37,459 bases of DNA. Source: Candidatus Sifarchaeum marinoarchaea (lineage in GTDB: Archaea; Asgardarchaeota; Sifarchaeia; Borrarchaeales; Borrarchaeaceae). The stretch is from positions 1-37,459 of the forward strand of contig JAECRW010000002.1 of assembly GCA_016294985.1 (NCBI GenBank). Reading direction: 5' to 3'. Below are positions 20,603-30,988 of the stretch, piece after piece (the first letter of the stretch is position 1; each line of letters begins with the position of its first letter). Below the pieces are notes generated by a model. That model did not search any database. It saw only the letters and a program-made list of their open reading frames with translations, and was not told where the DNA came from. Both the position numbers and the translations under genes were made by a program.

Positions 20603-21538
20603 CTATGTCTTTTTAGCTTGGATGAAGCAATTAGGTCCAAATTTATTGAGGATAGGCAAAGAACTAATTACTGACGCAATTGCTTTGGCTAATGGATGCG
20701 CTTTTCGTATAACGTAACTCGAAGAGAAAAGGATAGTCAAACCTAACCTTTTAACAAAATGTTCAATCTCAATTATATTTGATAAATACACTAAATCATC
20801 CTTATCACCACAAGCGAAGGCGGGGTCTTTCGAAAGGCGAGGTTTTAAAACTAATGAAAAGGTGTGGTTTTTTAATAGATTGAGTTGAATATACATGATA
20901 AGAAACATAAAAAGGCGTTTTAATTGATTTTTACTACATATTGCACTAATAAAAGCAATGAAGGCTGTTTTTAGATCTTTTCTTCCCTTTTCAACCCCTT
21001 TTTCTGAGACTACAACAAAAGGGCTTGCAAAATTCGGTGTCTGAATGAGGACAGCGCCGTCTTGTTTAGTTATTCTTGAAAGTTCAGAAATGCACGAACC
21101 AGGATTCGGAAGATGTTCAAGTAATTCCTGACACTCCACAATAGTAAATGCTTCATTTTTAAAAGGTAATTGCGTTGCATCTCCTATTAGAAACTCTGTC
21201 ATATGGTCAATTTGTTCGGAGATGGCCATTTTCTTTCCGAGAAGAATTCCCGCTCGTGAAATATCTATACCCACTGAAAAGAGCCCTTCTGTCGCAACCT
21301 TTCTTACGATGACACCACTACCGGTGCCAACGTCAAGAAACATACCACTTTTTGAATTTTTCATAAGAGACTTGAGTCCAGGAAAAAAGAGTTTACCCAC
21401 AGTATCTTCTTCCTTCCGATGACGTTCTGCATTTTCAAAATACCTTTCATAAGTGTCATAATAGGTAAACAAACGCCTTCTCAGAGCTCTAGACAGCGAA
21501 TTACCCTCCATGGCATCAAATAACAGAAAGTTTAACAC
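20603..21538 (-). CDS. SAM-dependent methyltransferase (class I, UbiE-like)
   Basis: MFLDVGTGSGVIVRKVATEGLFSVGIDIS; ELLEHLPNPGSCISELSRITKQDG. Confidence 0.8.
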   Translation of the reverse strand: MLNFLLFDAMEGNSLSRALRRRLFTYYDTYERYFENAERHRKEEDTVGKLFFPGLKSLMKNSKSGMFLDVGTGSGVIVRKVATEGLFSVGIDISRAGILLGKKMAISEQIDHMTEFLIGDATQLPFKNEAFTIVECQELLEHLPNPGSCISELSRITKQDGAVLIQTPNFASPFVVVSEKGVEKGRKDLKTAFIAFISAICSKNQLKRLFMFLIMYIQLNLLKNHTFSLVLKPRLSKDPAFACGDKDDLVYLSNIIEIEHFVKRLGLTILFSSSYVIRKAHPLAKAIASVISSLPILNKFGPNCFIQAKKT

Positions 21539-21631
21539 AGCAAGTTAAATACAAAACGTTTTTATAATTTTCAGCGATAATTCCCTTTTATCTTATTACT
21601 TGTGTTATGGGCCCGTAGCTCAGCTAGGTAG

Positions 21632-21655
21632 ACCAACAAAATAGTTGAGGCCAAT
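21632..21655 (+). other. tRNA-Lys intron 1 (D-arm, 24 nt)
   Basis: ACCAACAAAATAGTTGAGGCCAAT interrupts the 3' half of the D-stem (GCTC/GAGC restored on removal); relaxed BHB (GGT/GCC core, CAAC/GTTG intron hairpin); boundary ambiguous by 1 nt. Confidence 0.8.
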
Positions 21656-21670
21656 AGCGTCGGGCTCTTA

Positions 21671-21688
21671 TATCCTTCAAATAGAGAA
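21671..21688 (+). other. tRNA-Lys intron 2 (canonical 37/38, 18 nt)
   Basis: TATCCTTCAAATAGAGAA; core helix CTCT/AGAG with 3-nt bulges TA^T and AA^A. Confidence 0.9.
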
Positions 21689-21710
21689 ACCCGATGGTCG
21701 TGGGTTCAAA

Positions 21711-21740
21711 GGATCCAAGCAAAACGATTGGATCTGAAAT
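21711..21740 (+). other. tRNA-Lys intron 3 (T-loop 59/60, 30 nt)
   Basis: GGATCCAAGCAAAACGATTGGATCTGAAAT; core helix TTCA/TGAA, bulges AA^G and AT^T, intron stem GATCCAA/TTGGATC (7 bp). Confidence 0.92.
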
Positions 21741-21813
21741 TCCCACCGGGCCCGCCATCATTTTATCAAATATATTCTAATAATAATCTATTTTAGAAGA
21801 TCTTAATACTTTT

Positions 21814-24668: not shown

Positions 24669-26438
24669 TTAGGAGCTTTCACTTCTTTCGATATAGTAAA
24701 TTAGAGTTCTTGGATTTTCCACTTTATAGATTAGCGTAAAGTTATTTGGGGAATCTCTTTCAAAGTATAACTCGGGAAAATACTCTCTTGATTCTGGGGA
24801 CATTGAGTCTAGAACGAGATAACTAACATTAGAATCTACAATCCTGTATTCCAATGTTTGGTTCTGATAAATATTAGGAAACCCAACTGCTTTTAATCTA
24901 GAGAAATAATGAAACACAAGGGGTTTATGTGCAATAACAACAGACCTAGGACCTGCTTGATCTTTTAACCACTCTGCAGCTTTTACATATTCCTCCGAAG
25001 CGGGACTGGGTATAACTCGATACTTAATTAATTGCGTTTCAGCAATTTCATTTATTGGGGTTAAATATCCTATATTAAGAGAAGAATATGGATTTTGTGG
25101 AGTAGTTAACGAAAAAATCAAAAGAATGCTGTATAAATTGATCGAAATGATGAATGTTAAAGCAAGTCCTCCTAGAACTTTCGAGAGCTGGATTTTTTTA
25201 GAGGACTGAAAGATCCACGAGTTTTTTAAATTAAAAATTCTTGAGATCGCCATTGCAGCGAATATAGAAATCAGAGGGACAAGAGGAAGTAGATACCTAT
25301 GATATCGAGTGGGATACCAAATGAAAAACATCATGTACACCACTAAATAAGAATAAATAAGACGAATATTTTCTCGTTTGCCAGTAAAATAAAACCCAGG
25401 AATTGCAAAAAATAGTATTGTAATTGGAAAGATGAAGATAGACAAGAACGCGTAAGAAACTAAGCCGCCCCATAATCTTAACAGAATGTCTAGGAAGGAG
25501 TGGGTTCGGAGATATTCAAATATGTTTTGAGTTCCAGAGTATTCTGCGGATATTCCAGTTGATGTAGGATCCCTCCACAGGTCGGCTATATATCTAGTGC
25601 TCAAAGGATTACCAAACAAAATTGTATTCCTTAAGAACCACGGAAATGTTACAATTAAAAGGCCAATTATAAACCAAAGACATACGGAGAGTAAGTCTCG
25701 CGCTTGCTTCTTTTTTATTATTTCAAAAGCGATCAAAACTATATAAGCGACTATTATTAAGACACCGACATAGCGACTTAGATACGCGAGTCCAGTAAGT
25801 ATTCCCCCAATAAATTGATTTCGTTTTTCTCTTTCAATTGATAAGTAGTAAAGTGCACACAGCGAGAAAAATGTGAAAATCGTTTCACTCATTGGAATGC
25901 CAGAAAACAACCAAAGCGCTGGGTTTACTGCAATAAATATTGCAGCAATAACACCTGTGCGATAATCGAATAGTCTTTTTCCTAAGAGGTATACTGGGAT
26001 TATTGTTAAACTACCTATTATGATCAAAGGAACTAATGCACTTTGATAACTAATCCCTCCAAGCATATAAGAACAAGCGATAATCAATGAACTCAATGGT
26101 GGAAATTTGTCTTCTGGATGACCAAATCTTGTAAACCCAAGTCCAAGGGAGAGGCTTTCACTTAGTAACAGAACACGTACTGCATCAGGGATAAGCAAAC
26201 CTATTAAGGGATTTATCCCGAAGCATAATAGTCTTAACGAAAATGCAAAGACAAAAATAAGGAGAACAATTTGAACTTTTCGTTCAGAGAATAGTTTAAG
26301 GAATTCTTCTATGTTTTTCCTTATACTAAACGTAAGCACCACATCACCACTATCTATACGCCTTAAGAGATTAATGAATAGCTTTAAGTGGTTTTCGTAT
26401 AAACGTATCTCAATACTCACTGAAGTGAAGACACCCAA
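24669..26438 (-). CDS. GT-C fold membrane glycosyltransferase (PMT-like)
   Basis: Multi-TM, LLIPDAVRVLLLSESLSLGLGF...FPPLSSL loop, RYVGVLI/TFPWFLRN segments; N-terminus uncertain. Confidence 0.75.
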   Translation of the reverse strand: MGVFTSVSIEIRLYENHLKLFINLLRRIDSGDVVLTFSIRKNIEEFLKLFSERKVQIVLLIFVFAFSLRLLCFGINPLIGLLIPDAVRVLLLSESLSLGLGFTRFGHPEDKFPPLSSLIIACSYMLGGISYQSALVPLIIIGSLTIIPVYLLGKRLFDYRTGVIAAIFIAVNPALWLFSGIPMSETIFTFFSLCALYYLSIEREKRNQFIGGILTGLAYLSRYVGVLIIVAYIVLIAFEIIKKKQARDLLSVCLWFIIGLLIVTFPWFLRNTILFGNPLSTRYIADLWRDPTSTGISAEYSGTQNIFEYLRTHSFLDILLRLWGGLVSYAFLSIFIFPITILFFAIPGFYFTGKRENIRLIYSYLVVYMMFFIWYPTRYHRYLLPLVPLISIFAAMAISRIFNLKNSWIFQSSKKIQLSKVLGGLALTFIISINLYSILLIFSLTTPQNPYSSLNIGYLTPINEIAETQLIKYRVIPSPASEEYVKAAEWLKDQAGPRSVVIAHKPLVFHYFSRLKAVGFPNIYQNQTLEYRIVDSNVSYLVLDSMSPESREYFPELYFERDSPNNFTLIYKVENPRTLIYYIERSESS

Positions 26439-26501
26439 TCTAGAGGAAAATATGCTAACTTCCTACAGTTCGCAAATCCGCGATATACAGAGGTTTGAAA
26501 A

Positions 26502-27752
26502 GTGAACATCTGTTTTATTACGTATCGTTTTCCACCAGATGTCACAGGAGGCGGAGAAATTTCGAATTATGTTCTCATAAAAAATCTTGCAAATTTGAAC
26601 CACAAGGTAGTTGTACTCACAAGAAAACTAGATAATTCGAAGCCTCTAAAGCAAGAAGATAATATAGAAGTACACCGAATAATACCAACCCCCTTTCCAG
26701 CAACAGGATATCCTCTTGAGCCGTATTCCTTATTTTTAGCGAAAAAGATAATTTCAATTCTAAAATATAAACATGTTGAACTTATCCATGCTTTAGACTT
26801 TAGAACAACACCTGGAGCAATAATCGCTGCAAAAATTTTAAGAAGGCCTATTTTGGTTACAATAAGAAATTATTGGCCAATCTGTCCACGTTTAACCATG
26901 TTTATACCAAATCAAGGGGAATGTGCTGAATGTTCTCCCTCATCGATAATAAATTGCTTAGGTAAATGGAAGACTGGACTTCATCATTATATCTTTATGG
27001 TGTTGAGACGTTTTTTTCTAAAAAAGGCTGACAAAATAATCTGTGTGAGTAAATATGTGAGAAATATTCTTTTTCAGACATTAAAAATTAACAAGAGTAA
27101 ATTAGCGACGCTCTATAACCTACCTGACTATCACACATTTGAGATAACAAGTACTTATAAAAAAAACCTCAAACAAGACTATGGACTTTCGGAAGAAGAT
27201 TTCATTGTAGGATATGTGGGTCGCATCACTTTCGAAAAAGGAATCGAGTATCTCATCAGAGCGTTCGTTAATGTTGTGAAGATAACGGATCAAATAAAAC
27301 TTGTGATCGCTGGAGATGGAAACAAGAAAATCGAACTGCAACAACTTGTGAAAGAATTAAAACTTAATAAATCTGTTACTTTCGCTGGATTTATCGCGCA
27401 TGAAGATATCCCTTCATTTTATGAACTTTGTGATGTTATTGTACTTCCCTCTATATGGGATGAGCCGTTAAGTCGCGTTTTACTAGAAACATTTCATTTT
27501 AGTAAACCTGCGATTGCTACAAAAACTGGTGGAACTCCAGAAATCATAAGCGATGGCGAAAATGGGCTATTGGTAGAGCCAAAAAACTCTGATCAAATAG
27601 CCGATAAAATTTTATTCCTCTATAAGAATCCGGATATACGTCAACGAATTCAGGAAAATGCTCAAAGTTATTCAAACAAAAACTTAGATTCAAGAACCTT
27701 GACAAAAAAATTCCTTGATTTATATAAAACAGTACTCGGTAAAAGGGGCTGA
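26502..27752 (+). CDS. GT4-family glycosyltransferase
   Basis: RFPPDVTGGGEISNYVLIKNL; GYVGRITFEKGIEYLIRAF; EPLSRVLLETFHFSKPAIATKTGGTPEII. Confidence 0.9.
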   Translation: MNICFITYRFPPDVTGGGEISNYVLIKNLANLNHKVVVLTRKLDNSKPLKQEDNIEVHRIIPTPFPATGYPLEPYSLFLAKKIISILKYKHVELIHALDFRTTPGAIIAAKILRRPILVTIRNYWPICPRLTMFIPNQGECAECSPSSIINCLGKWKTGLHHYIFMVLRRFFLKKADKIICVSKYVRNILFQTLKINKSKLATLYNLPDYHTFEITSTYKKNLKQDYGLSEEDFIVGYVGRITFEKGIEYLIRAFVNVVKITDQIKLVIAGDGNKKIELQQLVKELKLNKSVTFAGFIAHEDIPSFYELCDVIVLPSIWDEPLSRVLLETFHFSKPAIATKTGGTPEIISDGENGLLVEPKNSDQIADKILFLYKNPDIRQRIQENAQSYSNKNLDSRTLTKKFLDLYKTVLGKRG

Positions 27753-27804
27753 AATTTATCAACCGATTATAGATGGTTTTTCAACTGAATATTTTATAAA
27801 AAGG

Positions 27805-28002
27805 TCAGACTTCGACAATATTACAACGTACACGCTTTAGAATTTCTTCAGCTACATCTGGTGTTGCTTTCATAACATAAAGATATTTTGGTGTACGAAT
27901 TTTAATTTTGACAACGTCTTTTAATCTTTTAATACGTGCTTCAATGGCAGTTTCGGAAAGTTTTAAGAGTTCATCTGGGTCAGTAATTTGTTTTGGCATC
28001 AT
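27805..28002 (-). CDS. rpl38e: Ribosomal protein L38e
   Basis: MPKQITDPDELLKLSETAIEARIKRLKDVVKIKIRTPKYLYVMK.. fits archaeal/eukaryotic L38e. Confidence 0.82.
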   Translation of the reverse strand: MMPKQITDPDELLKLSETAIEARIKRLKDVVKIKIRTPKYLYVMKATPDVAEEILKRVRCNIVEV

Positions 28003-28049
28003 TATCTCCTCTCGATCTCTTTATGTACTATTTGGTGGGCGGGGTGAGA

Positions 28050-28080
28050 TTTTCAGAAAGAGAAATTATATCTCTTTTCC
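28050..28080 (-). other. tRNA-Val intron 2 (T-loop 59/60, 31 nt)
   Basis: GGAAAAGAGATATAATTTCTCTTTCTGAAAA; core TTCA/TGAA, bulges AA^G and AA^T, intron stem GAAA(A)GAGA/TCTCTTTC. Confidence 0.92.
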
Positions 28081-28094
28081 TTTGAACTCACGAC

Positions 28095-28124
28095 TTCCAG
28101 ACCCTTACAGAGATTGTAAAGATA
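28095..28124 (-). other. tRNA-Val intron 1 (variable loop 45/46, 30 nt)
   Basis: TATCTTTACAATCTCTGTAAGGGTCTGGAA; 9-bp intron stem ATCTTTACA/TGTAAGGGT, relaxed BHB core CGG/CTG; removal restores variable loop AGGTC. Confidence 0.85.
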
Positions 28125-28186
28125 CTCCGCCGCGTGAGGGCGGCGTCATAGCCAGCTAGACCACCCGCCCAAAGAGTTATTGGAAA

Positions 28187-28348
28187 TTATCCGGTTAATT
28201 CACGCTTTTTCCATCTAAGGTCCTTTGAGCGACATCGCCGACATTTCTTTGCGCCTGGTGGGTTTCTTGCATAACATTTCCTGCATATCATGTGATGAAG
28301 TAAATGTTTTCTTGCAAGTGCTCTTAGTTCTGGATCTGCAACTGGCAT
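28187..28348 (-). CDS. rpl40e: Ribosomal protein L40e (53 aa, absent from the supplied ORF track)
   Basis: Minus-strand translation MPVADPELRALARKHLLHHMICRKCYARNPPGAKKCRRCRSKDLRWKKRELTG*, with the CxxC..CxxC L40e zinc ribbon. Confidence 0.92.
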   Translation of the reverse strand: MPVADPELRALARKHLLHHMICRKCYARNPPGAKKCRRCRSKDLRWKKRELTG

Positions 28349-28486
28349 TCATATGTCTCCTTTTCAAAGAATTTCAAGTGTATTGATTCATTTGTGACTC
28401 AATGCTGTCAAGTTTAGATTTTTCATTGATTTATAATCCTTTCGTTGCAGAATTTAAGTTAAAATTTGAACCCTACAGAAGGTGCT

Positions 28487-28879
28487 CTATTCTTTAGGTT
28501 CTTTAAGTTTTATGGATTCTGCGATTGAATCTATCTTCTCTTCCAGAAGTGCTAGATGGCGTACAATTGTTGTAATTTCTTTATCGGTATTTGCCTTTGA
28601 GAGATATAGTTCATATGTGGCGAAGAACAACACTATAACGGCAAGAATAAGTGCTGCATTTAGCGGCAGCTCGGTCATAAATATAACGCTTAAAAATTCC
28701 AAAACAAGAGGTTCAATTGAAATAAGTACCATGGACACCAAGAGCAAAATCCATATAAATATCCAAAACAGCATCCCTGACAAGCCAATTTTTTGGTGTG
28801 TGTACTGCCGGAACGTATGTGCCACCAAAACAATCGCTACTATTACTGCAATAAGTTGAATACTACGAAATACCAACAT
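28487..28879 (-). CDS. DUF2304-like membrane protein
   Basis: About three TM helices plus C-terminal helix; next to a DPM1-like GT2 as is common for DUF2304. Confidence 0.65.
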   Translation of the reverse strand: MLVFRSIQLIAVIVAIVLVAHTFRQYTHQKIGLSGMLFWIFIWILLLVSMVLISIEPLVLEFLSVIFMTELPLNAALILAVIVLFFATYELYLSKANTDKEITTIVRHLALLEEKIDSIAESIKLKEPKE

Positions 28880-28969
28880 TTGAGTAACCCCATCGATATT
28901 TTCAATTTATAATGATGAATCTCTTGTGAATTATTTTATTAAAAATCCTGTGGCTTAATTAGTTGATTA

Positions 28970-29671
28970 TTGATGAATTCTAATACTTATTCAGCGCAAA
29001 TACTGTCGATTGTTATTCCTGCATACAACGAAGAACACACCCTCAGAAATGTAATTAATTCAATATCACTCGATTTTCCGCATGAAATCATTTTAGTTGA
29101 TGATGGATCTTCTGATAATACATTTGAGATAGCGAAAGCTAATCCTCATGTAAGAGCCATCCGCCATATCTTAAACAGAGGTTATGGAGCAGCAGTCGCT
29201 ACAGGATTCGAAATTGCGAAAGGAGATATCATTGTTACAATTGATGCTGACGGCCAAAATGATCCCCAGCAGATTTCTGAATTAATACAACCTATTCTAT
29301 CAGGCGAGGCTGATGTAGTTGTTGGGTCTCGATATCTTGATGAATCTAATGGATTTAGGATATCACTAATTAAACGCATTGGAGAAAAACTCATTGGATT
29401 TGTATTACAAAAAAAGTACGGAGTTAAAATCACAAATTCTCAAAGTGGATTTAAAACGATAAGAAAAGAAGTAATAAAAAACCTTTTGCCGTTAACTGAG
29501 GAACGTTTCGGTTTCAATACTGAGTTGCTCGTATGCGCACTTAAAAACGGCTTCAGAGTTGTAGAACTCCCGAAGAAAGAAATTCCGCGTAAATACGGCA
29601 AATCAAAAATTAAATTGTTTAGGGATGGCTTCAGGATCCTTTATGCACTTATTAAATCAATTCTTGGATAA
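28970..29671 (+). CDS. GT2-family glycosyltransferase (dolichyl-phosphate mannose synthase-like)
   Basis: SIVIPAYNEEHTLRNVI; ILVDDGSSDNT; DADGQNDPQQI; GSRYLDESNGF. Confidence 0.9.
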   Translation: MMNSNTYSAQILSIVIPAYNEEHTLRNVINSISLDFPHEIILVDDGSSDNTFEIAKANPHVRAIRHILNRGYGAAVATGFEIAKGDIIVTIDADGQNDPQQISELIQPILSGEADVVVGSRYLDESNGFRISLIKRIGEKLIGFVLQKKYGVKITNSQSGFKTIRKEVIKNLLPLTEERFGFNTELLVCALKNGFRVVELPKKEIPRKYGKSKIKLFRDGFRILYALIKSILG

Positions 29672-29686
29672 AAAGAGCTGAATTCC

Positions 29687-30988
29687 GTGAATGATTTTGA
29701 ATTTCGCTTTCAAATAAAAAAAACCCATGTTCTTCTTGCTTTATTCATTTTGGTAGGTTTAATACTCCGTATGATAAATTTAAATGGTCCATTGGTATGG
29801 GATGAAACATATTATATAACTCACTCAGAAGAAATAAAACTTAATCCTTTTAAACACCCCGTTTGGGGAGGTCATCCCCCTCTATTTGCTTATCTCCTTT
29901 TTAGTGTATATCTTATTTTTGGTTCATCGATTTTCGCATATAGAATGCTGTCGGTCGTTCTAGGTAGTCTGACTATAGTTATAACATTTTATTTTGGAAG
30001 ACTGCTCTACGATGAAACAATAGGTGTATTTGCCGCCTTTGTTTTGAGTATCCTTCCACCACACGTCATTATGAGTCGTCTTATAATGATAGATGTAACC
30101 CTTACATTTTTTGGTACTCTTACTTTGTATGGTTGGGTAGCTGGTGAAATGAATGATTCCCGCAAACTAATGCTTTTAGGTGCTCTATCAGGTGTTCTAT
30201 CAGTTTTAAGCAAAGAACCTGCTATTATAATTCCCATGATTTTTATTTTGTGGTGTCTCTTAAGAAGAAAACTTTCATTCTATAATGTACTATCAATAGT
30301 ACCTCCTTATCTTGTGTATGCGATTTGGAAGATTTGGGCAGCTTTGACCAACTATAGTTACTCTGCACATGGCGTAAATTATACTGCCCTAGATCTGCTT
30401 ACCCAGCGTGCTCAATTCGAATCACTACCTATTAGTTACGTCAAAATCTTCGGAGAGGATCATCTATTTCTATTCTTTATTATTTTGTTACTTACGACAT
30501 ATATGTTCCGTATCAAAATTCAAAATAAAAGCATTTTCAATATGCTGCTTCCTATTATTCTCATAATACTTCTGGGAATTCCTCTTGGATTCTTTTTCTT
30601 ACAACAGTTCTTCCCTCTTCCTTCCACGACAAATTTTATAGATATTATCGCCCTTTCCTTATGTTTTTGCTTGTGGGGAATTCTTGCTATTCATGGCCTA
30701 CAAAATGATGTTTCTGAAAAATTCTTGCTCATTTGGAGTCTGTTTTGGCCTGTTGTGTTTATGTTAAATCCCAAAGTCAGTTGGCAATATCTTATTCCTA
30801 TCTCCCCCGCGTTAGCCCTCCTAATTGGCAAAGAGTTGTTTTTTTCTTTTACAAAAAACTGGAATTGGAGGTTATTCGGCATCGCCACAATTTCTGGGAG
30901 CATGTATTTATTTCTCGCCTATGACCTATTCGCATCGTATCTTATATTTTCGCAGAACGATCTCTTAACATTCCTTTTTGTCTTTTGA
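29687..30988 (+). CDS. GT-C fold membrane glycosyltransferase (PMT/ArnT-like)
   Basis: NGPLVWDETYYITHSEEI...HPPLFAYLLFSVY with acidic WDE loop. Confidence 0.8.
   Translation: MNDFEFRFQIKKTHVLLALFILVGLILRMINLNGPLVWDETYYITHSEEIKLNPFKHPVWGGHPPLFAYLLFSVYLIFGSSIFAYRMLSVVLGSLTIVITFYFGRLLYDETIGVFAAFVLSILPPHVIMSRLIMIDVTLTFFGTLTLYGWVAGEMNDSRKLMLLGALSGVLSVLSKEPAIIIPMIFILWCLLRRKLSFYNVLSIVPPYLVYAIWKIWAALTNYSYSAHGVNYTALDLLTQRAQFESLPISYVKIFGEDHLFLFFIILLLTTYMFRIKIQNKSIFNMLLPIILIILLGIPLGFFFLQQFFPLPSTTNFIDIIALSLCFCLWGILAIHGLQNDVSEKFLLIWSLFWPVVFMLNPKVSWQYLIPISPALALLIGKELFFSFTKNWNWRLFGIATISGSMYLFLAYDLFASYLIFSQNDLLTFLFVF

Follow-up and report, generated by a model that had tools for sequence, protein, structure and literature searches.

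We analysed a stretch of 37,459 nucleotides, here called the window. It comes from a genome of the genus Borrarchaeum (Asgard archaea), which it shares with Ca. B. weybense and Ca. B. yapensis. A tRNA-Val(CAC) gene lies on the minus strand between genes for the ribosomal proteins eL40 and eL38, and it is probably co-transcribed with both. The genus was identified by a search with eL40. The positions of the exons, introns and neighbours are listed in Table 1. Glycosyltransferase and mannosyltransferase-like genes flank the eL40-tRNA-eL38 group (window 24669-30988), which suggests a surface-polysaccharide cluster.

Table 1. Features of the tRNA-Val(CAC) locus and two further tRNA genes (window positions unless another contig is given)
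Feature	Position	Strand	Description
tRNA-Val(CAC) gene	28033..28170	-	138-nt precursor; CCA encoded at 28035-28033
Exon 1	28125..28170	-	tRNA positions 1-45: acceptor 5' strand, D arm, anticodon arm
Anticodon CAC	28136-28134	-	within exon 1
Intron 1	28095..28124	-	30 nt, variable-loop insert at 45/46; BHB of relaxed form with 3/4 bp in the central and 9 bp in the inner helix
Exon 2	28081..28094	-	tRNA positions 46-59: GTC, T-stem 5' strand, TTCAAA
Intron 2	28050..28080	-	31 nt, T-loop insert at 59/60; strict BHB formed by the T stem and UUCA-UGAA, with bulges AA^G and AA^U
Exon 3	28033..28049	-	tRNA position 60, T-stem 3' strand, acceptor 3' strand, discriminator A, CCA
eL40 gene	28187..28348	-	Pfam PF01020; upstream of the tRNA gene, same direction
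eL38 gene	27805..28002	-	Pfam PF01781; downstream of the tRNA gene, same direction
tRNA-Lys(CUU) gene	21609-21757	+	three introns (D arm near 23/24, 37/38, 59/60); 77 nt when spliced, called Lys(ctt)
Sifarchaeum tRNA-Val(UAC) gene	G004:C24:4100-4700, start about 4185		four apparent introns (D arm, 37/38, 45/46, 59/60); boundaries placed against the Borrarchaeum mature tRNA

Neither ARAGORN nor Rfam found any tRNA in the unspliced window. When 28124-28095 (30 nt) and 28080-28050 (31 nt) were excised, the resulting sequence was GGGCGGGTGGTCTAGCTGGCTATGACGCCGCCCTCACGCGGCGGAGGTCGTGAGTTCAAATCTCACCCCGCCCACCA, 77 nt including CCA. The double excision restored a standard cloverleaf, called tRNA-Val(cac) by ARAGORN in its default mode; only the doubly spliced form gave this call. 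The three exons follow one another in tRNA order on a single 138-bp stretch, so the gene is neither split nor permuted. The inserts are not group I introns either: they have 30-31 nt, whereas a group I core has more than 200 nt, and no Rfam match was found in the window.

The original prediction, made from the window alone, had placed a 138-bp gene on the minus strand with inserts of 30 and 31 nt and a mature tRNA of 77 nt. Our coordinates, strand and lengths all agree with it. The predicted anticodon CAC in an unbroken loop, CTCACGC, is what the sequence contains. The claim that all introns are noncanonical, with none at 37/38, is right for the window gene; the orthologue in Ca. Sifarchaeum subterraneum does have a 37/38 intron. 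The plus-strand ORF that had been called spurious (27908-28159, 83 aa) runs antisense to tRNA-Val(CAC) and eL38 and is indeed spurious.

Conservation of the gene and its introns

We compared the window's genome (G000) with the Borrarchaeum genome G001, B. weybense (G002), B. yapensis (G003) and Ca. Sifarchaeum subterraneum (G004). The last is distinct from the window's genome and is meant wherever we write Sifarchaeum. The order eL40, tRNA-Val(CAC), eL38 is kept in B. weybense, B. yapensis and Sifarchaeum. By eye, Val(CAC) precedes apparently the same downstream gene in several other Asgard genomes. In B. weybense and B. yapensis the gene keeps both introns, with 90-91% identity over its full 138 bp.

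This conservation bears on the quality of the assembly. The window's genome was assembled from a metagenome and is fragmented (69%-complete, 301 contigs), and inserts in such a genome could be assembly errors or chimeras. However, B. weybense and B. yapensis were assembled separately and show the same architecture in copies that are not identical. We regard an assembly artefact as extremely improbable.

The Val(CAC) genes of the window's genome, B. weybense and B. yapensis have introns at 45/46 and 59/60. That of Sifarchaeum has introns in the D arm, at 37/38 and at 45/46 and lacks the T-loop intron. Similar introns at 45/46 and 59/60 also occur in the paralogues Val(GAC), Val(UAC) and Pro. 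Val(GAC) carries both in the window's genome, B. weybense and B. yapensis, only the 45/46 intron in G001 and only the 59/60 intron in Sifarchaeum. Val(UAC) carries both in B. weybense and B. yapensis and only the 45/46 intron in G001. Intron presence therefore differs among orthologues, and the T-loop intron is missing from Val(GAC) and Val(UAC) of G001 as well as from Val(CAC) of Sifarchaeum.

Splice sites and splicing enzymes

Random double excisions of the locus also gave a tRNA call with ARAGORN in 199 of 2000 trials. Because about 10% of random double excisions pass too, an ARAGORN call alone is weak evidence for the splice sites, and we set it aside as a splice-site test.

Archaeal tRNA splicing usually cuts each 3-nt bulge of a bulge-helix-bulge (BHB) after its second nucleotide. 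We slid the excision from -3 to +3 nt at each site and scored the BHB by this 2/3 bulge-cleavage rule. Only register 0 gave a BHB at both sites, and this register corresponds to the originally predicted junctions, AG^GTC and TTCAAA^T. At 59/60, register 0 alone has a central helix of 4/4 bp (UUCA/UGAA), an inner helix of 4 bp and an outer helix supplied by the T stem (5 bp). With its 3-nt bulges and 4-bp central helix this is a strict (3-4-3) BHB. At 45/46, register 0 alone has three of the four central pairs joined to a 9-bp inner helix. The outer helix is nearly absent. This BHB is of the relaxed form, and it competes with the anticodon stem. Shuffled versions of intron 2 equalled the observed pairing in 50 of 100000 trials; for intron 1 the number was 5 of 100000.

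The same pairing was found across related introns. In 13 T-loop introns, the BHB was paired in 89.9% of cells, compared with 39-63% for slid partners, a score that partly reflects the T stem, whose conservation does not depend on a genuine intron. Twenty-three cells had changed on both sides (0/500 shuffles). The informative change in the T-loop central helix is one pair, A-U to G-C in Sifarchaeum. In 12 variable-loop introns, 81.4% of cells were paired, compared with 12-44% when slid; the Pro 45/46 intron cannot be matched to the Val alignment in every column, so its inner-helix counts are conservative.

A real gene could also have intron 1 removed in an adjacent register, such as GGCGGA^...^AGTC, which would give the variable loop AAGUC. 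The sequence permits such a shifted excision of equal length, and in other Asgard families some Val(CAC) genes have AAGTC. Yet the bulges adjoin the 9-bp inner helix only in the AG^GTC register. Moreover, the Val(GAC) paralogues yield AGGTC even where their introns end in ..CAT or ..TAG, and Val(GAC) of Sifarchaeum has an uninterrupted AGGTC, the sequence that the AG^GTC splice predicts. The mature variable loop of the relatives is thus the one expected from the original junctions, and we consider a shifted register improbable.

The locus could also be a decayed tRNA pseudogene with neutral inserts that are never removed, and it is indeed missed by standard tRNA finders. Against such decay, three genomes have kept the exons, the CCA and the BHB pairing undamaged, and compensatory changes are seen; many other tRNA genes carry similar inserts at the same positions; and no other Val(CAC) gene was found among the matches in B. 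weybense and B. yapensis. A pseudogene is in our view highly improbable.

Each of the four Borrarchaeum genomes (G000-G003) has two PF01974 genes, alpha and beta. The alpha subunit matches that of Aeropyrum pernix (PDB 3p1z) with an E value of 2.6e-39. It aligns over the whole catalytic part, with the catalytic Tyr/His/Lys and a lysine aligned to K44 of the crenarchaeal specific loop (CSL). The beta subunit is without the His in the three Borrarchaeum genomes inspected, which did not include B. yapensis. Broad intron specificity goes with the crenarchaeal specific loop and the (alpha-beta)2 form (PMC6379350). From these sequences, Borrarchaeum is predicted to encode an (alpha-beta)2 splicing endonuclease that can process noncanonical sites. 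An RtcB-type ligase is present in G001-G004, that is, in three Borrarchaeum genomes and Sifarchaeum; it was not found in the 69%-complete assembly of the window's genome.

We conclude that the locus is almost certainly a functional Borrarchaeum tRNA-Val(CAC) gene whose precursor has two protein-spliced BHB introns, at 45/46 and 59/60. We infer that pre-tRNA-Val(CAC) is transcribed, cleaved and ligated. The (alpha-beta)2 heterotetrameric endonuclease would cut both bulges of each BHB, intron 1 at AG^U and AA^G and intron 2 at AA^G and AA^U. RtcB would then join the exons into the 77-nt tRNA with a normal T-loop, UUCAAAU, and the variable loop AGGUC.

The T-loop intron family and four-intron genes

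To find the 59/60 family, we ran a covariance model that combined the T arm with the intron over Asgard genomes. Matches at E<=0.01 were obtained in 72 of 232 genomes. At E<=0.05, the model matched 14 genes of B. weybense and 19 of B. yapensis; G001 had 8 such genes, and the window's genome had 6. A near-complete Borrarchaeum genome thus has 14-19 tRNA genes with a T-loop intron of this one family, and T-loop introns are unusually common in this lineage. We checked 51 places in the class. At 45 of them a 5' acceptor strand that matched was present together with U8 and A14, and at 49 the central helix at 59/60 had all 4 bp. Val, Pro, Lys and Trp genes are among the hosts, along with various others; Val and Lys are the only ones verified by splicing.

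The tRNA-Lys(CUU) gene of the window (Table 1) is likewise missed by standard finders. The Rfam tRNA model placed only four genes above its cut-off in the whole assembly of the window's genome. In this genome the T-loop introns of Lys(CUU) and Lys(UUU) are identical, whereas their D-arm and 37/38 introns differ. Within B. weybense, and likewise within B. yapensis, the 45/46 introns of Val(CAC) and Val(GAC) have the same loop variant, and this variant differs by one base between the two genomes (CTTGA versus CGTGA). The identical Lys introns and the genome-shared Val variants point to copying of introns between isoacceptors. More generally, copying or gene conversion may underlie the gain, loss and exchange of introns among tRNA genes.

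The Val(UAC) gene of Sifarchaeum appears to carry four introns. ARAGORN called a tRNA only when all four inserts were removed, and none of the 14 partial removals worked. We propose that in Sifarchaeia (Borrarchaeum and Sifarchaeum) a lineage-wide family of 59/60 BHB introns has spread through a large part of the tRNA genes, is still copied between isoacceptors by conversion and, together with other introns, yields four-intron genes that exceed the maximum of three given in the literature consulted. We consider the chances of this proposal evenly balanced.

Some further tRNA loci were noted. By eye, tRNA-Trp of B. yapensis (G003:C95, end near 21330) has a four-intron look, with inserts in the D loop, at 37/38 (long), in the variable loop and in the T-loop. 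The T-loop intron is absent from the B. weybense orthologue. A candidate split tRNA-Trp in B. weybense (G002:C5, near 181318-181364) was rejected, as a complete Trp gene lies on the same contig at 182207-182454 or slightly beyond. The 3' piece, flanked by the end of a 23S rRNA and a 5S rRNA, includes the 3' half of a T-loop intron and is likelier a remnant or a misassembly than part of a split gene. A 179 kb contig of B. weybense (G002:C1) has clustered intron-free tRNAs for Lys, Glu, Ala, Gly, Met, Tyr, Pro, Leu, Thr, His and Trp and a second, different RtcB. This contig is possibly a large phage or another contaminant binned with the genome.

Comparison with known tRNA introns

The introns in the window are archaeal BHB tRNA introns, a kind already known at many positions, including in other Asgard classes. 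The T-loop family and the four-intron relative are more interesting than the single Val(CAC) gene. Genomes of this sort look nearly empty of tRNAs to standard searches, and the annotation of Asgard decoding and recoding depends on recognising such introns. Because close relatives differ in whether a given site carries an intron, gain, loss and conversion can be tested directly. The genus Borrarchaeum offers an Asgard endonuclease together with many natural T-loop substrates. T-loop introns may also shield the 3' halves of tRNAs from integrating elements, an idea that the Borrarchaeum set is suited to test.

Literature searches, which for PMC11291895 covered the main text, gave no usable report of four-intron archaeal tRNAs and none giving both 45/46 and 59/60. 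The closest published case is that of the Asgard groups Atabeyarchaeia and Freyarchaeia, described in 2024. According to the main text of PMC11291895, 92-95% of their tRNA genes have introns, often noncanonical, with several per gene in over half. These are BHB introns in intron-rich Asgard archaea, as here, at noncanonical positions and several to a gene. However, the two groups belong to other classes, and the relevant passages of that main text describe neither T-loop introns nor introns of Borrarchaeum or Sifarchaeum.

Among the enzymes, the (alpha-beta)2 endonuclease of A. pernix (PDB 3p1z; PMC6379350) is similar in its catalytic part, triad and loop lysine. In contrast, the Borrarchaeum enzyme comes from an Asgard archaeon and is known here as a sequence. 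The tRNA-Ile(UAU) gene of Cyanidioschyzon merolae has three introns, in the D, anticodon and T arms of one gene (PMC9602550), but this red alga is a eukaryote, and its gene is a parallel to the Borrarchaeum gene and not a relative. Thermoproteales and Thaumarchaeota have tRNA genes with up to three introns (PMC8450103, PMC4033280). They share with Borrarchaeum short BHB introns at many positions, similar introns across tRNA genes and an (alpha-beta)2 endonuclease, which in Borrarchaeum is predicted from sequence. By contrast, a large proportion of the Borrarchaeum tRNA genes carry an intron of one 59/60 family, and in a relative one gene apparently has four introns.
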